Part shown: piece after piece, positions 53,858 to 64,000 of the stretch
How positions within the stretch are numbered: position 1 is the first letter of the stretch
How the letters are laid out: every line of letters begins with the position of its first letter
Assembly (NCBI RefSeq): GCF_000023885.1
Contig: NC_013165.1
Coordinates: 2,666,001-2,730,000, forward strand
Source of the DNA: Slackia heliotrinireducens DSM 20476
GTDB taxonomy: Bacteria; Actinomycetota; Coriobacteriia; Coriobacteriales; Eggerthellaceae
Length of the DNA: 64,000 nt
Direction: 5' to 3'
The notes under the pieces: generated by a model
Told to the model about the DNA's origin: nothing
Databases searched by the model: none
What the model saw: only the letters and a program-made list of their open reading frames with translations
Made by a program: the position numbers and the translations under genes

Positions 53858-54089
53858 CTGCAGCCCTCCTTTTACCGCTTGCGAACCAGCAGCCCTCCTT
53901 GCGAGAATATGATACGTAAAGATTGACACCATCAAGCCGAAAATGAAAGAAATCGCACGTTATCGGCTTAAGTACCCAAAAACGGGTGACAACGGAAACG
54001 GGCGTTCGGCGCTATGGTGTATGTGCTCGTTCACGGGTCTGACAAAGCAGACGGGGGAAATATGGACGATGCAGAAAAAAGGAGGAAAC

Positions 54090-56534
54090 ATGACGAACGA
54101 AAAAGACACCGCCATGTCGCGGAGGACCTTCGTTAAGGGAGGAACCCTCGCAGGGCTCGCTTTCGCAGGCAGCTCCGCACTGTTCGCTTGCTCTCCCAGC
54201 GCGAGCGAACCGGCACAGGACGAGGCCGAAACCGGCGAAGCGCCCGTCGAAGGTGCCGAGGAGACGGTCACCTGGTCCCACTGCCACGTCAATTGCGGCG
54301 GCGCTTGCCCGCTGCGCCTGCATGTGGTCGACGACGAGATCGCCTGGGTCGACAATGACACCAGCGGCAGCCCCGAGTTCGGCGCCTACCAGCTGCGCCC
54401 CTGCCTGCGCGGCCGCTCCATCCGTCGTTGGATCAACGGCGAGGACCGTCTGAACTACCCCATGAAGCGCGTCGAGGGCACCGCCCGCGGCGAGGGCAAG
54501 TACGAGCAGATCAGCTGGGACGAGGCTCTGGACATCATCGCCAGCGAATTCACCCGCGTGAAGGAAACCTACGGCAACGAGGCCATCTTCATCCAGGAGT
54601 GCTCCGGCGTCGAGCAGAACGTCATGATGAACAGCCCGTTCTTCCGTCTGTTCAACCTGTTGGGCGGCGAAACCAAACGTTACGGCAACTACTCCAACGC
54701 CGGCATCAGCTTCGGCGCTTTGCCTTACACCTACGGCGGCGGCTGGGCGGCACGTCCGTTCCACTCCATCGCCGACGGCGAGCTGGTGGTCATGTTCGGC
54801 AACGCCCCTGCAGACACCCGCATGGCGGGCGACGGCGCAGGCTACGACCTGAACGTCATGCGCGAGCAGAAGGGTGCGAAGATCATCGTCATCGACCCGC
54901 GCCGTTCCGACATCGCCGCCAATCAGGATGTCGAATGGATTCCGATCATGCCCGGCACCGATGCCGCGCTGGTCGCAGGCGTCGCCCATGAGCTGATCGC
55001 CGCCGACCTTGTCGACCTGGACTTCCTGCACACCTACTGCGTGGGCTACGACGAGGAGACGCTGCCCGAAGGCGCCCCTGAGAACAGCTCCTACTACGCC
55101 TACATCATGGGCACCGGCTACGACATGGTGGAGAAAACCCCTGCTTGGGCCGCCGCCATCACGAAGGTTCCCGAGGCCCGCATCATCGAGCTGGCTCACC
55201 AGATCGGCGAGGCCAAGCCCTGCTTCATCTGCCAGGGTTGGGGCCCGCAGCGCCGCACCAACGGCGACTCCGCATCCCGCGCCATCATGCTGCTGCCCCA
55301 GCTGGTCGGCCAGGTGGGCAAGCCCAACACCAACAGCGGCGCCCGCGAAGGCAACGGTGGCTTCTGGATCGACACCTTCCCCGAGAGAGACAACCCCGTA
55401 TCCGCCCGCTTCCCCAACTTCCTGTGGCCCGAAGCCATCGACCACGGTCACGAGATGACCGCCACCAACGCCGGCATCATCGACGGCGACGGCCTGAAGA
55501 GCGACATCAAGTTCCTGGTCAACTACGGCAACAACATGATGGCCAACCAGAACGCCGATATCAACACCACCACCGACATCCTGAAGGACGAAAGCAAGTG
55601 CGAGTTCATCCTGCAGTACGACGTGGTGTGGAGTGATTCGTGCAACTGGGCCGACATCGTGCTGCCCGACCTGACCCCGCAGGAAACCTGGACCTGGTCC
55701 GTGCAGGGCGAATGCAACGATTCCCTGGGCGTGTGGTTCGGCCGTCCTTCCACCAGCCAGAAGTTCGAGCGTCGCGAGGTATACGAAGTCTGCGCCGACC
55801 TGGCCGAGCGTCTGGGCGTCTACGACGAGTTCACCGACGGCGGCAAGACCCGCGAGGACTGGTGCCGCGAGCTGTACGAAGCCTGGGCCGCCGACAACCC
55901 GAACGCCCCGCAGACCTTTGACGAGGGCCTGGAAATGGGCATCTACAAGGAAGAGATCGAATGGTCCGACGGCGGCACCGATCCCTTCATCGAGGACCCC
56001 GAAGCGAACCCCCTGGAAACGGCCACCGGCAAGATCCAGGTGTACTCCCCCGAACTGGCGGAAATGGCCGAAACCTGGGAACTTGAAGAGGGCGAGTCCA
56101 TCTGCCCGATTCCCGCATACCTGCCCGGATTCGAGAACGCCGAAGGCGTGACCGACGAGTTCCCGCTGTGCATGGTAGGCTACCACACCAAGGCGCACAC
56201 GCATTCCAGCTACGCGAACAACATGATCATCCAGGACGCCCATCATCACAACGCCTGGATCAACCCGATCGACGCCGAAGCCCGCGGCATTGCCAACGGC
56301 GACGCGGTGCGCGTCAAGAGCGCCCATGGCGAGATCGAGATCGAGGCCCGCGTGACGAACCGCATCATCCCTGGCTGCGTGGCCATTCCGCAGGGCATGT
56401 GGCATAAGGCCGACATGCAGGGCGACCGCATCGACTTCGGCGGCTGCATCAACACGCTTGCCAGCCGTCGCGCAACGCCGGTCGGCAAGGCAGTTGGCGC
56501 ACACAGCGCCGTCATCGAAGTCACGAAGGCGTAA
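54090..56534 (+). CDS. Tat-exported molybdopterin oxidoreductase, DmsA-like catalytic subunit
   Basis: An 814-residue enzyme of the DMSO reductase family. The Tat signal is MSRRTFVKGG. The N-terminal iron-sulfur site is CHVNCGGACPLR with a later Cys in CLRGRS, and this pattern is DmsA-like. YGNYSNAGIS near residue 195 is the probable molybdenum-ligand region. Mo-bisPGD binding segments include MFGNAPADTR, VIDPRRSD and INPIDAEARGIANGD. The complex sits outside the membrane and reduces S- or N-oxides or another acceptor; the substrate is unknown. ATG 54090 follows AAAGGAGG. First gene of a four-gene operon. Confidence 0.9.
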   Translation: MTNEKDTAMSRRTFVKGGTLAGLAFAGSSALFACSPSASEPAQDEAETGEAPVEGAEETVTWSHCHVNCGGACPLRLHVVDDEIAWVDNDTSGSPEFGAYQLRPCLRGRSIRRWINGEDRLNYPMKRVEGTARGEGKYEQISWDEALDIIASEFTRVKETYGNEAIFIQECSGVEQNVMMNSPFFRLFNLLGGETKRYGNYSNAGISFGALPYTYGGGWAARPFHSIADGELVVMFGNAPADTRMAGDGAGYDLNVMREQKGAKIIVIDPRRSDIAANQDVEWIPIMPGTDAALVAGVAHELIAADLVDLDFLHTYCVGYDEETLPEGAPENSSYYAYIMGTGYDMVEKTPAWAAAITKVPEARIIELAHQIGEAKPCFICQGWGPQRRTNGDSASRAIMLLPQLVGQVGKPNTNSGAREGNGGFWIDTFPERDNPVSARFPNFLWPEAIDHGHEMTATNAGIIDGDGLKSDIKFLVNYGNNMMANQNADINTTTDILKDESKCEFILQYDVVWSDSCNWADIVLPDLTPQETWTWSVQGECNDSLGVWFGRPSTSQKFERREVYEVCADLAERLGVYDEFTDGGKTREDWCRELYEAWAADNPNAPQTFDEGLEMGIYKEEIEWSDGGTDPFIEDPEANPLETATGKIQVYSPELAEMAETWELEEGESICPIPAYLPGFENAEGVTDEFPLCMVGYHTKAHTHSSYANNMIIQDAHHHNAWINPIDAEARGIANGDAVRVKSAHGEIEIEARVTNRIIPGCVAIPQGMWHKADMQGDRIDFGGCINTLASRRATPVGKAVGAHSAVIEVTKA

Positions 56535-56545
56535 AGGGGGACATC

Positions 56546-57175
56546 ATGCAATACGGTTTCTATTTCGACGGCACGCGCTGCACAGGCTGCAAAACCTGCG
56601 TCCTGGCGTGCAAGGATAACAAGAATCTCACCTCCGAACAGGCATTCCGCCAGGTGTATGAGTTCGAAGGCGCCGATGGCTTCACGGCGGACGACGCCGG
56701 ATGCTGGACCGTCGGCAGCTTCACCTACTACGTGTCCAGCGCCTGCAACCATTGCGCGACCCCGGCGTGCGTCGAGGCATGCCCCGTGGGCACCATGACG
56801 AAGCACGAGGACACGGGCCTGGTCTACAACGACCCCGAAACCTGCATCGGCTGCGGCAGCTGCGTGAATGCATGCCCCTACGGCGCACCCCAGGTAGACA
56901 CGGAAATCCAGAAGTCCATCAAGTGCGACGGCTGCCACGCGCGCGTCGAAGCCGGCGAAATGCCGATCTGCGTGGCCGCCTGCCCGCAGCGCGCCCTGGA
57001 GTTCGGCGACATCGAGGAGCTTCGCGCCAAGTACGGCGACACTGCGGCCATCGCTCCGCTTCCCGACCCGTCACAGACCACGCCCAGCGTGTGCATCAAC
57101 CCGCCGGTCTGCTTTGTGGACTGGTCCGAGGCCGACAAGGGTACGGTCGTGAACGCCATGGAGCTTCGCGCCTAA
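56546..57175 (+). CDS. 4Fe-4S electron-transfer subunit, DmsB-like (1)
   Basis: A 209-residue protein with four Cys clusters for four [4Fe-4S] centres: CTGCKTCVLAC, CNHCATPACVEACP, CIGCGSCVNACP and CDGCHARVEAGEMPICVAACP. It has no signal peptide and would be exported together with the Tat-bearing DmsA-like partner. It starts 11 bases after the catalytic gene and shuttles electrons from the membrane anchor. A second, similar subunit gene lies at 57308. Confidence 0.92.
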   Translation: MQYGFYFDGTRCTGCKTCVLACKDNKNLTSEQAFRQVYEFEGADGFTADDAGCWTVGSFTYYVSSACNHCATPACVEACPVGTMTKHEDTGLVYNDPETCIGCGSCVNACPYGAPQVDTEIQKSIKCDGCHARVEAGEMPICVAACPQRALEFGDIEELRAKYGDTAAIAPLPDPSQTTPSVCINPPVCFVDWSEADKGTVVNAMELRA

Positions 57176-57191
57176 CTCAACTACAATAGCC

Positions 57192-57225
57192 AATGCGGCA
57201 GCGCCTCCCTCCACGCTGCCGCATT
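57192..57225 (+). other. Hairpin between the two DmsB-like genes
   Basis: AATGCGGCAGCG (57192-57203) pairs with CGCTGCCGCATT (57214-57225), a 12-bp stem 16 bases past the first dmsB-like stop. There is no T-run. It may stabilise the upstream mRNA or attenuate transcription of the downstream genes. Confidence 0.55.
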
Positions 57226-57307
57226 CGGCACTACCGCATGCCGCCGGCATGCACGGCGGCACCGCCCGATCGGCGCCGTTTCGAACTGACCAGGAGACGA
57301 TGAACGT

Positions 57308-57931
57308 ATGCAGGAGTTCGGATTCTATTTCGACGGCACACGCTGCACAGGTTGCAAGACCTGCATGCTCGCCTGCAAAGACTACTATCATCTACCCTCG
57401 GATCTTGCTTTCCGGCAGGTGTACGAATACGAACTGCACGGCTCCTGGACGCAAGACGCGGCCGGCTGCTGGACGGTGGACGGCGGCGTCTACTACGTAT
57501 CAACGTCCTGCCAGCATTGCGGAAACCCCGCCTGCATCAAGGTCTGCCCGACAGGCGCCATGCATAAGGAAGACAACGGCGCCGTGCTCGTGAACACCGA
57601 GCGATGCATCGGCTGCGGCTACTGCCACCTCTCCTGTCCGTACAACGCCCCCAAAGTCGACCGCGAAGCGGGCCATAGCGTCAAATGCACCGGTTGCTTT
57701 GACCGCGTTCGCGCAGGTGAGGCACCCATTTGCGTAGCCGCCTGTCCGCAGCGCGCCCTTGGGTTCGGGGAATTCTCCGAGTTTTCCCGAAGCGAAGGCA
57801 CTGTGCGCGCCATAGCGCCCCTTCCCGACGAAGACGCCACCGATCCGCACCTGGTCATACGGCCGCCTCGCCATGCTGCCGCGCCCGACACCGATGCAGG
57901 CTTCGTGGCCAACCGAGACGAGATAGTGTAG
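57308..57931 (+). CDS. 4Fe-4S electron-transfer subunit, DmsB-like (2)
   Basis: A 207-residue paralogue of the preceding protein with the same four clusters: CTGCKTCMLAC, CQHCGNPACIKVCP, CIGCGYCHLSCP and CTGCFDRVRAGEAPICVAACP. The N-terminus (MQEFGFYFDGTRCTGCKTC) closely resembles that of subunit 1, so the pair arose by duplication. The two have diverged, especially after residue 150. The gap before it is 132 bases and holds a hairpin. It is followed four bases later by the membrane anchor gene. Confidence 0.9.
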   Translation: MQEFGFYFDGTRCTGCKTCMLACKDYYHLPSDLAFRQVYEYELHGSWTQDAAGCWTVDGGVYYVSTSCQHCGNPACIKVCPTGAMHKEDNGAVLVNTERCIGCGYCHLSCPYNAPKVDREAGHSVKCTGCFDRVRAGEAPICVAACPQRALGFGEFSEFSRSEGTVRAIAPLPDEDATDPHLVIRPPRHAAAPDTDAGFVANRDEIV

Positions 57932-57935
57932 CCCC

Positions 57936-58832
57936 ATGGGACTTGGACTTCATACCGCACTGCAAGAGCTGTCGCTCATCCTGTTCACCACCCTCACGCC
58001 TGCGGGGGCCTTCGCCTGCATGCTGCTCGCATTGCTGCAGATGGGAAGCGCGCCCAGCGATGCGCAGCGCACCCGCTTGCGGCACATGATGGGACTTCCC
58101 CTTGTGGTGTCGACGGTGGGCATCATCGCCTCGTCGACGCACCTGGGCACGCCCGCCAACGCGCTCTACGTGATCACGGGAATCGGGCGCTCGCCGCTGT
58201 CCAACGAGGTCGCCTGCGTGCTTGTGTTCCTGGTCGCGACGGGCGCGTTCTGGCTGTATTCCTTCTCCATCAAGCCGAATGCGATCTTGATGAAAGCCCT
58301 GGGGACGGCCGTCGCGGTCTTGGGGCTCGTGTGCGTGGCAGGCATCTCGTTTGCCTACGACCAGGAAACCATCGTCACCTGGACAACTTGGATGACCCCC
58401 GTTGGCACCGCCCTTGGCGGCTTGGCCTGCGGAATTCCTCTGTTCCTGCTGACGGCGCACCTGGCACAGGCCTTCGACGCGATCGAGCGTATGAAAAAGC
58501 CCCTGCTCGGCATCGGTATAACGGCCTTTGCATCCAACACCGCCTGCGCCATTGCGCAGTACGCGGCCGTTTCGGGCATGTCCAACGAATTCCTGAGCGT
58601 TTCCGAGCTGGCGCCTGCCTACCCGGCGTTCATCGCGACATACGTGCTCTGCACTACCTGCGCCTGTTATTTGTGCGGCATGACGCTTCTGACCAAGGGG
58701 GCTGTAGACGAGGTAGCCGCCCGCACGCGCGGCAGGCGGCTGCTGCTTGCGACAATCCTCGCCGCGCTCGGGTTTTTCTCCCTGCGGTTCGTCTTTTACA
58801 TGGTCCACATGACCGTCGGCATCAGCTTGTAG
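57936..58832 (+). CDS. DmsC-type membrane anchor subunit
   Basis: A 298-residue protein with about eight hydrophobic segments that anchors the reductase and oxidises menaquinol. The opening GLHTALQELSLILFTTLTPAGAF is typical of DmsC, as are SSTHLGTPANALYVITGIGRSPLSNE and the later SFAYDQETIVTWTTWMTP. It starts four bases after the second iron-sulfur gene. A bidirectional terminator follows at 58859-58881. It completes the complex. Confidence 0.88.
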   Translation: MGLGLHTALQELSLILFTTLTPAGAFACMLLALLQMGSAPSDAQRTRLRHMMGLPLVVSTVGIIASSTHLGTPANALYVITGIGRSPLSNEVACVLVFLVATGAFWLYSFSIKPNAILMKALGTAVAVLGLVCVAGISFAYDQETIVTWTTWMTPVGTALGGLACGIPLFLLTAHLAQAFDAIERMKKPLLGIGITAFASNTACAIAQYAAVSGMSNEFLSVSELAPAYPAFIATYVLCTTCACYLCGMTLLTKGAVDEVAARTRGRRLLLATILAALGFFSLRFVFYMVHMTVGISL

Positions 58833-58910: not shown

Positions 58911-60848
58911 CTACTCGAAATGACGACGCACGCGCCCAGGATGGTCCAGACGATAGCCGCCCAGCTCCTCCATGCGCGCACGGAACGCATCGCTTGCCAG
59001 CACCTCAAGCAGCGCCTGCACCATGGGCGTATCCCACGCGTAATCGGGAATGAGCAGGTCATACTGCTCTTCACACACAGGAACGAACCCCAGGCCGTAC
59101 ATCTTGGCCGCCGAGTAGATGCCCATGCCGGCATCGGCCGACCCCGCCTCCACCAGGGCCGCCACCGCCGTATGGGTGAACTCCTCGTGGTCGTAGCCGT
59201 AGATGGCGCCCGTGTCGATGCCGTCGCGCTTGCACACGAAATCGCTCAGGATGCGGGTACCGGAACCCTTCTGACGATTCACGAACCGGCGTCCCTCGCG
59301 GGTCAGGTCTGCCAGGGACTGAATGCCCAGCGGATTGCCCGGCGCCACCATGAGGCCTTGCTGGCGGTAGACGCACTCCACCTGGCGCACGCCGCCTTTG
59401 GGGAAATGTTTCTCCAGGTAGGGCTCGTTGTACGTACCCGTTGCTTCATCCAGCAGGTGGATGCCGCCGCAATGGTTCTCGCCGCGCTTGGCGGCCACGA
59501 TGCCGCCCATGGACCCCACATGCGTGGACGCCACCGACAGTTCGGGATTGGACTTATGGATGAGCTGAGCGATCTCGTCGATCAACGGGTCGTGGCTGCC
59601 GATCACCACCAGCGACCGCTCGATATCCGCCAACGGACGCAGCAACCGCACGTCGACCTGGTCGCCCGCCTCGTACCCTTCGCTGTTCTGGGGAATAGTC
59701 ATGATGCCGTCGGCCTTGACGAAGGACGTCACCACGCCTGCGCCTCGGGACAAAGGCGTCGCCACCAGTTTGTCGCCCACCTTTCCCACACGCACGCGCA
59801 CGAACTCTTCGTACTTAAGCGACGACGTGCACGGGCGCGCCAACGTGGCCTTGACCCGGTCCCCACCGGGCGTTGAGCAGCCCAGCAGCTTCTCGATCAG
59901 CGGCTTGACCATCTGCTCGATCACGATGATGCCGCTCACGGGGTAGCCAGGTACGCCCACGATGGCGGTGTTCGCAGCGCAGCCCAAAATGGCGGGTTTG
60001 CCCGGCTTCATGGCGATGCCGTGGTAGAGCACCTCGCCCACCGCGGCCACGACGCGGGACGAATAGTCGTCACGTCCGGCGGAAGACCCGGCGTTCAACA
60101 GCACGATGTCGCATTCCGACACGGCTTTGACCAGCGCTTTCTGCACCAGGTCGGGCTTGTCGGCCACAATTGGATAGGCCACGGGATCGGCGCCCCACTG
60201 GCGCACCATGCCGGAGAAGATCGTCGAGTTGAATTCCATGACATCGCCGGGTTTGGGGTTGGCGCTGGGTTCGACCACTTCGTCGCCGGTGGGGATGATG
60301 CCCACCCGAGGACGCGCGATGACACCCACCTGCTGCACGCCCGCCGCCAGCATGGCGCCCATGGCGGCCGGCTCGATGCGCACGTTCGACGTCAGCAGCA
60401 TCTCGCCTGCGCAGATGTCTTCGCCGATCTGACGGACGTTGCCCCACGGGGCAATCGACGCATGCAGGATGACCGGGCAGGTCCCCAGCTCGTCGATGCC
60501 ATGGCCCTCTTCGAACACGACGTCTTCGATCATCACCACGGCGTCGCAGCTCTCCGGCAAAGGATCGCCTGTGTCCACCACGATGTAGTCTTCAGGCTGT
60601 ACGGTCACAGGCGTGGTTGCGGTGGCACCGAAGGTCGCTTTTGCCGCCACGGCGATTCCGTCCATGGCACACGCGTGGTAGTGCGGTGCCGAAATGGCCG
60701 CATACAGAGGCTCGGCCGTAACCCGGCCCAAAGCCTCACCCACCGGCACGTATTCCTTCCGCGGGGCGAAACCACGCTCATCCAGAGCCGCCAAAAATCC
60801 CGAAACGGCCTCATCCAATGCGACATTGCTCAAATACTCGAACGCCAT
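58911..60848 (-). CDS. MoeA-type molybdopterin biosynthesis protein fused to a periplasmic-binding-like domain
   Basis: A 645-residue cytoplasmic protein. The first 410 residues are MoeA: APHYHACAMDGIAV, VVDTGDPLPESCDAVVMIED, the MogA-like core PRVGIIPTGDEVV, LLNAGSSAGRDDY, AMKPGKPAILG and VPGYPVSG. The last 230 residues are a PBP-like ligand-binding domain (LVVIGSHDPLIDEIAQLIH, GIHLLDEATGTYNEP, RFVNRQKGSGTRILSDF, GSADAGMGIYSAAKMYGLGFVPV), as seen in other MoeA-PBP fusions. The binding part may sense or deliver molybdate or the cofactor. It is 55 bases downstream of a second moeA gene. Confidence 0.9.
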   Translation of the reverse strand: MAFEYLSNVALDEAVSGFLAALDERGFAPRKEYVPVGEALGRVTAEPLYAAISAPHYHACAMDGIAVAAKATFGATATTPVTVQPEDYIVVDTGDPLPESCDAVVMIEDVVFEEGHGIDELGTCPVILHASIAPWGNVRQIGEDICAGEMLLTSNVRIEPAAMGAMLAAGVQQVGVIARPRVGIIPTGDEVVEPSANPKPGDVMEFNSTIFSGMVRQWGADPVAYPIVADKPDLVQKALVKAVSECDIVLLNAGSSAGRDDYSSRVVAAVGEVLYHGIAMKPGKPAILGCAANTAIVGVPGYPVSGIIVIEQMVKPLIEKLLGCSTPGGDRVKATLARPCTSSLKYEEFVRVRVGKVGDKLVATPLSRGAGVVTSFVKADGIMTIPQNSEGYEAGDQVDVRLLRPLADIERSLVVIGSHDPLIDEIAQLIHKSNPELSVASTHVGSMGGIVAAKRGENHCGGIHLLDEATGTYNEPYLEKHFPKGGVRQVECVYRQQGLMVAPGNPLGIQSLADLTREGRRFVNRQKGSGTRILSDFVCKRDGIDTGAIYGYDHEEFTHTAVAALVEAGSADAGMGIYSAAKMYGLGFVPVCEEQYDLLIPDYAWDTPMVQALLEVLASDAFRARMEELGGYRLDHPGRVRRHFE

Positions 60849-60903: not shown

Positions 60904-62109
60904 CTATGAGAACATCCGCACGTCCACTTCGGCGCCGGCGGCCAAACCCTCAAGATTGCGGCCAATGGCGAAAAACCCGTCGGCACGGCTGAGCTGCGAG
61001 ATGAGCCCGGATTTCCCGCGGATCGGCACCGCCGTAACCTGCCCGTCGCGTTGCTCAAGACGCACGGGAACCAGCTCGCTGCGGCCATGATTCGACGGAA
61101 CGCCCGCGGACAGCTTCGCCGCCACGGACAGGGCCTTCCGGTCGCCTGCCAGAAGCGGTCGCACCAGCTCGAGGAACATGAAGTAGGCCGCCACGGGATG
61201 CCCAGGCAGCCCGAACGCAGGCACACCGGCCACATCGGCGCACATGGTAGGTTTGCCTGGTTTGACGGCGATGCCGTGGAACAGCATCTCCCCCAGTTCG
61301 GACAGCACCCGTTCGGTGTTGTCCTTCCGCCCGGCCGACGACCCGCCCGACACAAGCACCATGTCGCAACTCTCCAGGGCCGCACGCACGGTGGCAAGCA
61401 GGACGTCGTACCGATCAGGCACGATGGGAAAACGGGTCACGTGAGCACCGCAAGCCTCTGCCGCCGACGCCAGCACCGGCGCGTTCACATCGCGCATCTG
61501 CGATGCCACGGGCACAGCATCCGTCGGCACAATCTCGTCTCCGGTTGAGATGACGCCTACGTTGACCTGCTCATACACCTCGCAATTGACCATGCCCAGG
61601 CTTGCCAGCGTACCCACGTGGTGCGGCAGCAACGTGGTTCCTGCAGAAATGAGCACCTCGCCAGGCTTCACATCGTCGTTCTCGAACACGATGTTGCCGC
61701 CGGGCGCCACGGGCTTCGCCACGCCCACGGTTCCGTCGCCGTACTCCTCGCAGTATTCCAGCATGACCACGGCATCGGCTCCGTCAGGCACCTGGCCGCC
61801 GGTGGGAATGCGCACGCAGGTCCCCGGCGAGCACGCCATTTCGGGCTTTGCCCCCATGTCCACTTCTCCCACCAACGTCAGCAGCGCAGGCAGGGCGTCC
61901 GAACAGCCGAACGTGTCGGCAGCCACAACCGCATAGCCGTCGACCGTCGAACGGTCGAAAGAGGGAACGCCCTCCTGAGCCACCACATCACGGGCCAGCA
62001 CGCAGCCTGCCGCCGCATCAAGCGGCACCTGCCGCACGCCGCGGCGTAGCGGGAAGAACCGATCGGCCACAGCCGAGCGCGCGTCATCCAGAGACACGAC
62101 TTCCAGCAT
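60904..62109 (-). CDS. moeA: Molybdopterin molybdenumtransferase
   Basis: A 401-residue MoeA that inserts molybdenum into adenylylated molybdopterin. Motifs are VPSFDRSTVDGYAV, IPTGGQVPDGADAVVMLEY, NVGVISTGDEIV, VLVSGGSSAGRKDNTERVL, AVKPGKPTMCADVAGVPAFGLPGHPVA. ATG 62109 follows GAGGAGG. With the fused MoeA gene downstream, it is well placed to serve the DmsA-like enzyme encoded next to it. The RSTVDG variant of the usual SAMDG motif places it in a subgroup distinct from the fused paralogue. Confidence 0.93.
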   Translation of the reverse strand: MLEVVSLDDARSAVADRFFPLRRGVRQVPLDAAAGCVLARDVVAQEGVPSFDRSTVDGYAVVAADTFGCSDALPALLTLVGEVDMGAKPEMACSPGTCVRIPTGGQVPDGADAVVMLEYCEEYGDGTVGVAKPVAPGGNIVFENDDVKPGEVLISAGTTLLPHHVGTLASLGMVNCEVYEQVNVGVISTGDEIVPTDAVPVASQMRDVNAPVLASAAEACGAHVTRFPIVPDRYDVLLATVRAALESCDMVLVSGGSSAGRKDNTERVLSELGEMLFHGIAVKPGKPTMCADVAGVPAFGLPGHPVAAYFMFLELVRPLLAGDRKALSVAAKLSAGVPSNHGRSELVPVRLEQRDGQVTAVPIRGKSGLISQLSRADGFFAIGRNLEGLAAGAEVDVRMFS

Positions 62110-62718: not shown

Positions 62719-63759
62719 TTACAACCAGCGGTAGGCGGTAGACCTGCCCGCGCCCAGCTTCTCCACCTCGCCGGCTTTCACCATCTTGCCCAGCGCGTTT
62801 TCCACGGTGGCTTCGCTGATGTCAGTGTTCGCGTCCAGAATCTGCCGCTTGGTCACAGGGCCTGCCGCCTGCCGGACGAAGGCTCGCACCCGCTCGGACT
62901 TGCCGCTGGGCGCATTGGCCGCCGCGTCCACGGCGTCGAAAAGGCGGCCGTACACCTTATGCAACAGCTCGAGCCAGTAAAGCACATAGGGCGAGTAGTC
63001 GTTTGCACCCCGATCCCAACCTTCCACGCTGCTGTTGAGGGCATCGTAGTAGGCCATGGCCTCGTCTTCGATAGTACGGTCCACGCTCATGTAGCGGGAC
63101 ACGTCGAAACCCGCCTTCCTCATCAACAGGTCGGCTAACAGGCGCGCGATGCGGCCGTTTCCCTCGTCGAAGGGGCGGATGCACATGAAGTCGACGGTGA
63201 ACACGGCGGCCTGCACCAACGGGTTGCCGGCGGAAACGGCGAAGGTATCTGCCAGGCTGTCGCAGGCGCCGCCTAACACCAACGGGGTCTCGAACGCCGT
63301 AATGGGGCTTACCGGCACCGCCTGGGAATGACCGTCCACCTGTACATATATATAGTCTTTCTTACGGTAGCGGCTTTTGCGGCCCAAATTGCGATGGCCG
63401 TACAGCGTCTCGAACAACTTAACCGCCGTCGCCGTGGTCAAGTCGAACGCATCCGGATCGGCGTTTATGAGCGCCAGCGCGTTGCCGTAGCCGATAACCT
63501 GCCGCTCGGTCTCGCCCACAGGATCGGCGCCTTCCATCAACTTGGCTGCACGGGCGGTGTCAATGGGAAACCCCTCGATACGCGTGGATGCAGCAACGCT
63601 GTCCGCCAAGGCAACCGCCTTCAGCGGCTCCAGCAGCTCGGGGTGCATCTGCTCGATCACACCGAGCTTTCCCCTGTCTTCATATACCCTCATATGTGCG
63701 TCGGCGATTTTGCCGCTGTACAGTTTCTGAGGAAGATGACCGTAGTCGAACGTACGCAT
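62719..63759 (-). CDS. Fic-domain protein with the catalytic His replaced by Arg
   Basis: A 346-residue Fic protein. An N-terminal inhibitory motif SVAASTRIEG (S58 to E62, S/T-x3-E-G) identifies the class II layout. The Fic core motif reads CIRPFDEGNGR, whereas active AMP-transferases have HPF; the catalytic His is Arg at residue 195, encoded by CGC. The remainder of the motif is normal. A C-terminal winged helix (KRQILDANTDISEATVENALGKMVKAG) ends the protein. ATG 63759 follows CAGGAGG. Adenylylation activity is probably lost or changed. Confidence 0.88.
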   Translation of the reverse strand: MRTFDYGHLPQKLYSGKIADAHMRVYEDRGKLGVIEQMHPELLEPLKAVALADSVAASTRIEGFPIDTARAAKLMEGADPVGETERQVIGYGNALALINADPDAFDLTTATAVKLFETLYGHRNLGRKSRYRKKDYIYVQVDGHSQAVPVSPITAFETPLVLGGACDSLADTFAVSAGNPLVQAAVFTVDFMCIRPFDEGNGRIARLLADLLMRKAGFDVSRYMSVDRTIEDEAMAYYDALNSSVEGWDRGANDYSPYVLYWLELLHKVYGRLFDAVDAAANAPSGKSERVRAFVRQAAGPVTKRQILDANTDISEATVENALGKMVKAGEVEKLGAGRSTAYRWL

Positions 63760-64000
63760 ACAGACCTCCTGCTTTGCAGTGCAGGCGCCTTATTCGCCAG
63801 GCGTCGTTTTTCCCTTGCTTTCTGCCTAGCATAGCAGACGGGAGGATGCTTTGCCTTATCCATATGTCTCATTTAGGCAAAATCAAACGATTTTTCTGCC
63901 TAATCCAGAAAGACATTTAGGCAATCTGGGGTATGTTGCCCATGGCTAACTCACAAAACCCGTTTTTTCTGCCTATCGTGCGTGCTTTAATACCTTCAAG
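63760..64000. promoter_or_regulatory. Upstream region of fic with five TGCCTA/TAGGCA boxes
   Basis: No gene is supported here. The hexamer TGCCTA occurs at 63823, 63897 and 63970 (spacing 74 and 73 bases), and its complement TAGGCA at 63874 and 63918. Two of the TGCCTA boxes follow a T-run. The region may contain binding sites for a regulator, possibly also of a gene beyond the window. Confidence 0.5.

Follow-up and report, generated by a model that had tools for sequence, protein, structure and literature searches.

A Fic protein with arginine at the catalytic histidine position: a probable regulator of a divergent aldehyde oxidoreductase operon in Slackia heliotrinireducens

Fic proteins are protein-modifying enzymes, and loss of their catalytic histidine is usually treated as loss of function. 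What, then, is the role of a Fic protein that has arginine at this position and keeps the other residues of its motif? Such a protein is encoded in Slackia heliotrinireducens DSM 20476, near the end of the stretch of 64,000 nucleotides analyzed here (the window). The genome comprises 3,165,038 bases in one contig. The gene is a minus-strand open reading frame of 346 codons with an ATG start, and has the following features:

62719–63759, minus strand: fic gene, with a Fic fold and a predicted C-terminal winged helix (open reading frame, Pfam PF02661, model, fold matches)
63571–63588, minus strand: inhibitory-type motif S58-TRI-E62-G63 (sequence; conservation in 42 sequences)
63250–63372, minus strand: flap hairpin (strands 136–141 and 144–149) and the next helix, residues 130–170 (model, conservation)
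63142–63177, minus strand: Fic motif R195-PFDEGNGRIA-R206, which fits the consensus HxFx(D/E)GNGRxxR except at the His position
63175–63177, minus strand: codon of Arg195 (CGC) at the catalytic His position, middle base 63176
62722–62901, minus strand: winged-helix domain, residues 287–346 (secondary structure of the model)
62776–62814, minus strand: helix 316–328, putative DNA recognition helix (model)

The Fic/Fido fold is seen both in the PF02661 match (35.5 bits, cut-off 24) and in the comparison of the model with Fic structures (Z up to 31.2). The motif reads DFMCIRPFDEGNGRIAR (CIRPFDEGNGRIAR), and residue 195 is Arg, where the consensus of Fic AMP transferases has the catalytic His. The nucleotide-binding remainder of the motif (E199, G200, N201, G202, R203, and R206) is present. 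The first-pass annotation had described this replacement exactly: CGC is read at 63175–63177, one base (63176) away from a His codon, and the translation bears out that the remaining motif residues and S58-E62 are intact. S58-E62-G63 corresponds to the N-terminal inhibitory motif of class II. S58 is invariant and E62 is at least 90% conserved in the alignment of 42 sequences, and Ser58-x3-Glu62-Gly63 matches the reported consensus (S/T)XXXE(G/N) (PMC9755527).

The AlphaFold model, built with 42 sequences, has a mean pLDDT of 93.1 and a pTM of 0.79. Its C-terminal part contains helices 287–297, 304–310, and 316–328, followed by strands 332–335 and 342–345. This helix-helix-helix-strand-strand order, at pLDDT of about 75–98, supports a winged helix, as the first-pass annotation had proposed. 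Matches to two DNA-binding domains, PF24034 and PF22168, were found below the Pfam cut-off in a search with the full-length protein and point the same way. The nearest solved structure is 8uqu (Z 31.2, rmsd 2.0 over 250 residues), and other Fic proteins, including SoFic and CbFic2, come next.

Is the replacement old? A recent inactivation or a sequencing error, both named in the first-pass annotation, or a decaying pseudogene could be suspected from the single base that separates the codon from a His codon. Among the 138 genomes of the family, 47 contain a Fic match at E ≤ 1e-25. The clade of the Slackia protein (hereafter the Arg clade) has 21 members with 57–100% identity: the Slackia protein, 19 aligned orthologues, and L006, which was left out of the alignment. 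Arg195 is found in all 20 aligned members, and also in L006, as read from its open reading frame. Arg in every close orthologue read is therefore due neither to chance nor to error, and the comparison gave the opposite of what would have been seen if the orthologues all had His. The Arg codons turn over synonymously. Among 23 tabulated codons, CGC is seen 11 times, CGT five, AGG three, CGG two, and CGA and AGA once each; the clade uses five of these kinds, and all Arg members together use six. Within the clade, dN/dS is 0.06–0.10 in seven pairs, which indicates purifying selection, and it is 0.05–0.12 over nine pairs, some with dS near saturation. The genome of strain RHS 1T is reported as finished, with less than one error per 100,000 bases (PMC3035243). 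With Arg fixed in 21 of 21 members, a pseudogene, a recent loss, and a sequencing error are ruled out, and the probability left to any of these is negligible.

Outside this clade, residue 195 differs with the gene neighborhood. The gene is often found next to an aldehyde:ferredoxin oxidoreductase (AOR) gene, and 28 proteins of this AOR type have a readable motif: the 21 clade members, L058, L059, L060, L068, L125, L126, and L129. Residue 195 is Arg in 24 of them, Lys in one (L058), and His in three (L059, L060, and L126). In contrast, all 15 relatives at 30–37% identity with no AOR nearby have His. A DNA pattern for the motif with Cys-Ile/Val/Met-Arg, which does not cover Ala193 variants, was found in seven genomes out of 396 in the class, each of them a member of the same family. 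In the motif-masked tree, several changes are needed at residue 195 and the Arg members fall into two groups; the AU test does not reject their union in one clade (p 0.124). L126, which is AOR-linked and has His, is placed on the AOR-less side of the midpoint-rooted tree, where long branches are flagged. Two fragments of genome G107 (L072 and L091, 43% identity) lack everything before about residue 215 and resemble the C-terminal halves of ordinary Fic proteins. They were set aside, and L072 was left out of one tree. Outside the class, plasmid records contain only relatives with 27–33% identity, and the two inspected (Acetoanaerobium and Exiguobacterium) have His and no AOR nearby. One of the records, L144 (NZ_CP154629.1), is a 2.6-Mb "plasmid" of Acetoanaerobium noterae with four listed features, and may be a chromosome.

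The operon to which fic is divergent begins just beyond the window. It encodes a 160-aa 4Fe-4S protein, a 603-aa AOR, NuoE-like, NuoF-like, and NuoG-like proteins, and a ThiF-family protein. The domains of the first five are, in order, Fd, AFOR_N/AFOR_C, a 2Fe-2S thioredoxin-like domain, Complex1_51K, and Fer2_4 (Fer2/Fer4, in the NuoG-like protein). This is the gene order worSLCBA of class IV tungsten oxidoreductases, type 1. Type 1 operons are described as worSLCBA with a variable worX, which is thought to serve cofactor processing (PMC13328260), and ThiF may be the counterpart of worX. By analogy with the cited family, the neighbor would be an electron-bifurcating tungsten aldehyde oxidoreductase.

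The linkage of fic with this operon is tight. In all 25 AOR-type loci with complete upstream DNA, fic is divergent to the 4Fe-4S gene and the AOR gene. These are 19 loci of the Arg clade, L058, L059, and L068, and three (L125, L126, and L129) from two other families. In three further genomes, fic is at a contig end (L006, L048, and L060) and AOR begins at the end of another contig. L140 is a cut fic (33% identity) that adjoins a 4Fe-4S gene, with the motif cut off. An AOR (E ≤ 1e-150) is present in 27 of the 138 family genomes, and 25 of the 27 contain AOR-type fic; in the other two (G103 and G122) the contig ends before the expected start of fic. Full-length AOR-type fic (at least 41% identity) was not found in the 111 AOR-less genomes of the family. 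L068, which is AOR-linked at a low identity of 34%, comes from a genome with AOR.

Upstream of AORs of distant families (≤49% and 51–55% identity), no fic was found, several contigs being short there. In f6, another family of the order, six of 33 genomes contain AOR, and the divergent gene is clear in one contig, L128. There, the gene in front of the AOR operon encodes not a Fic protein but a protein with HTH_17 and PBP_like domains (PF12728 and PF12727; 3912–4934). This protein is plausibly a different type of regulator at the corresponding position, and is a candidate for a tungstate/molybdate-type or cofactor-responsive regulator. The upstream open reading frame of L143 has no Pfam match, and the remaining f6 loci are cut.

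Two adjacent MoeA genes (58911–60848 and 60904–62109, minus strand), one of them fused to PBP_like, follow fic with a gene for a 178-aa membrane protein in between. The same cluster is seen in L038, L040, L042, and L047, where it lies some way downstream of fic. Further away, at 53943–58832 on the plus strand, are a molybdopterin oxidoreductase-like gene, two DmsB-like 4Fe-4S genes (56546–57175 and 57308–57931), and a membrane anchor-like gene. We take these names from the translations, and the electron-transfer subunit is presumably duplicated.

The region between fic and the operon contains an inverted repeat and single half-sites:

63760–64000, no strand: fic/4Fe-4S intergenic region; the 4Fe-4S gene starts about 25 bases past the window
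63823–63828, minus strand: half-site TAGGCA, followed by GAAA (converted from L037 3824–3829)
63873–63903, no strand: inverted repeat TTAGGCA-N17-TGCCTAA, with half-sites at 63874–63879 and 63897–63902
63918–63923, plus strand: half-site TAGGCA (converted from L037 3919–3924)
63970–63975, minus strand: half-site TAGGCA, followed by GAAA, nearest to the divergent operon (converted from L037 3971–3976)

Each of the 25 fic/4Fe-4S intergenic regions, 5,615 bases in total, contains TT(A/G)GGCAG, and 57 sites were counted; the regions are related by descent and hence not independent. Dinucleotide shuffles (300 sets) contain 0.56 sites on average and four at maximum. The gene thus has operator-like repeats next to it, as a regulator gene would. 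Over 26 loci (307,880 bases) there are 77 such sites, and the same 57 lie inside the intergenic regions. In the commonest layout, TTAGGCAGAAA-N-TTTCTGCCTAA, TTAGGCA and TGCCTA are 17 bases apart, and a single copy lies nearer the AOR operon. The layout deviates in L049, L050, L058, L059, L068, L126, and others. In L038, L044, and L046, palindromic elements, different in each, are inserted between the operator-like repeat and the start of fic. The inverted repeat of L040 scored as terminator-like; since its half-sites are also found alone, we consider a terminator the less likely reading. No sigma-70-type promoter was recognized by the promoter scan, and therefore repression and activation cannot be distinguished by reading the sequence.

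The repeat is local. The exact TTAGGCA-N17-TGCCTAA has one copy in the 3.17-Mb genome. TTRGGCAGAAA occurs twice, in the operator and inside a long open reading frame, which we take to encode a topoisomerase. A wider regulon was also considered and rejected: with up to two mismatches, the repeat is found at four places in the genome, against six for the reversed control pattern. Over the whole window, TWRGGCAG shows no excess (eight sites, with 5.19 expected by chance).

The sites flank the AOR gene side too, and they might be bound by an unlinked regulator, while the Fic protein has another role tied to AOR, such as acting on an AOR subunit. This is quite improbable. TT(A/G)GGCAG is missing in the upstream DNA (274–500 bases each) of 11 of 11 AOR loci without fic, and a repeat that is unique in the genome is what is expected of a local regulator. 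Moreover, the repeats upstream of fic in AOR-less relatives differ from those of AOR loci and vary with the recognition helix.

These relatives (L061–L077), which have His and no AOR, contain clade-specific inverted repeats 100–200 bases upstream of fic. By score, the repeats in 12 of 15 regions beat the shuffles in all but four or fewer of 60; those of L066, L069, and L073 are unremarkable, with the clade motif present by eye. Also by eye, TGGCTAAGATA is seen upstream in all six AOR-less rows with the helix SQRT(V/I)ER, and TGATGCAGA, on either strand, in all six of L061, L062, L063, L067, L070, and L073. Repeats of the type TTTCTCCCAA are seen upstream in L074 and L076, of which the helix is GSSSVES. 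The AOR-linked rows with TT(A/G)GGCAG have mostly S-x-(A/S)-(T/A)-(V/I)-E-(N/A) in the recognition helix. Site and helix co-vary, which indicates that the Fic protein itself binds the sites, with the reservation that each group is a clade and does not count as an independent trial. The comparison also suggests that Fic proteins of this branch may generally regulate their own genes.

Is the protein still an enzyme? Arg195, together with the intact Glu199, GNGR, and R206, might perform another transfer or hydrolysis, gated by DNA binding, as part of the regulation. In the Arg clade, both the inhibitory motif and the other positions of the Fic motif are indeed intact: Glu199, Asn201, Gly200/202, Arg203, and Arg206 are 100% conserved in its 20 aligned members. 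CbFic2, a Fic-HTH enzyme of Coxiella, is reportedly stimulated by DNA (PMC10628234), and a degenerate Fic2 of Campylobacter is reportedly toxic, although it still required its His (PMC5651007). Against a retained reaction, Glu199 or Asn201 has disappeared in AOR-linked relatives whose gene has the same position and operator. The residues are Lys195/Thr201 in L058, Arg195/Ala199/Cys201 in L068, Arg195/Val199 in L125, Arg195/Thr199 in L129, and His195/Ala199 in L126. Both motif arginines and the glycines are retained in these proteins. A remaining enzymatic function thus appears unlikely. On the other hand, L059 and L060 are of AOR type and have a fully canonical His motif; therefore, loss of activity is no rule for the role.

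In the Arg clade, mean column identity is 0.92 in the flap (130–152), the best conserved block, 0.89 in residues 181–210, 0.86 in the recognition helix, and 0.74 in the whole winged helix. In AOR-less rows the flap reaches only 0.62, and its constraint is therefore specific to the AOR-linked lineage. This suggests that the pocket or a partner surface is still of importance.

Taken together, the regulator proposed in the first-pass annotation gains support from the divergent AOR operon, the conserved operator-like repeats, the co-occurrence, and the further loss of catalytic residues within the lineage. We consider it likely, at roughly 70%, that the Slackia protein is a transcription regulator derived from Fic, which controls its own gene and the AOR operon and probably does not AMPylate, with an old His-to-Arg change and a kept pocket. 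In these gut and rumen bacteria, the Fic protein appears to be dedicated to the neighboring AOR genes, as a DNA-binding switch. From the comparisons above we infer DNA binding by the Fic protein, the direction of control, the loss of catalysis, and the sensing role.

The mechanism could be as follows. A one-component regulator built on the Fic fold would bind TT(A/G)GGCAGAAA half-sites, usually as an inverted repeat, with its C-terminal winged helix. Binding between fic and the divergent worS-worL(AOR)-worC-worB-worA-thiF operon would control both the operon and fic, most likely by repression. At position 195, Arg would have taken the place of the catalytic His at an early stage, and the protein probably ceased to transfer AMP. 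The flap and what was once the active site, both strongly constrained, would most likely form a pocket for a ligand or partner that sets DNA binding. It can be imagined that an already autoregulatory Fic protein with a winged helix came to lie divergent to worSLCBA, and now controls both. AMP transfer would then have been lost in most branches, and the pocket may act as a sensor. Candidate signals are nucleotides, cofactor precursors, tungstate or molybdate, and aldehydes. A more specific and tentative idea is that the lineage consists of Fic pseudoenzymes, in which the Arg/Lys pocket holds a ligand linked to tungsten and aldehydes, and binding at TT(A/G)GGCAGAAA depends on whether the pocket is occupied. 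The ligand might be a nucleotide, a product of AOR, or an adenylylated cofactor precursor.

The His replacement appears to be old, selected, and tied to one metabolic operon. The lineage could thus serve as a natural system for the Fic fold without catalysis, and the Fic protein and its sites are candidates for the regulator and the operator of one class of bifurcating tungsten aldehyde oxidoreductases. A literature search, with most subscription journals outside its reach, found no Fic protein linked to AOR and no Fic-HTH regulator reported to serve one metabolic operon, and in particular no such lineage with Arg/Lys fixed in place of the catalytic His. The words "regulator" and "Fic" are both absent from the main text of the class IV classification paper (PMC13328260).

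Among known systems, the neighboring operon resembles the class IV tungsten oxidoreductase operon in its gene order of 4Fe-4S, AOR, NuoE-like, NuoF-like, and NuoG-like genes. The closest structure, 8uqu, is the N-terminal domain of a Fic family protein of Bordetella bronchiseptica (phmmer 143 bits, 28% identity). Its motif is CIHPFPDGNGR, with His in place of the Arg of Slackia, and the title of the entry names no function. CbFic2 of Coxiella burnetii (8cil) shares the Fic domain and the C-terminal HTH, and matches over residues 1–346 (Z 25.4, rmsd 5.0). DNA binding is reported to affect its function as well, but CbFic2 is described as an active (de)AMPylase with His205 (PMC10628234).

Fic-HTH regulators are already known from CccR of Yersinia pseudotuberculosis, a Fic protein with HTH that was shown experimentally to be an autorepressor acting on an inverted repeat; this regulation is reportedly independent of its toxic activity (PMC9755527). 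CccR and the Slackia protein have in common the Fic domain, the N-terminal SxxxEG, the C-terminal HTH, and the inverted repeat upstream of their own gene (PMC9755527). In contrast to the Slackia protein with its Arg, CccR keeps His192, AMPylates FtsZ, and is reportedly secreted by a T6SS and toxic to neighboring cells (PMC9755527). The spacer of the CccR repeat is reported as 26 bases (PMC9755527), while it is 17 bases (TTAGGCA/TGCCTA) in most regions of the Slackia type. Unlike the CccR repeat, the sites of the Slackia type are located between fic and a divergent AOR operon.
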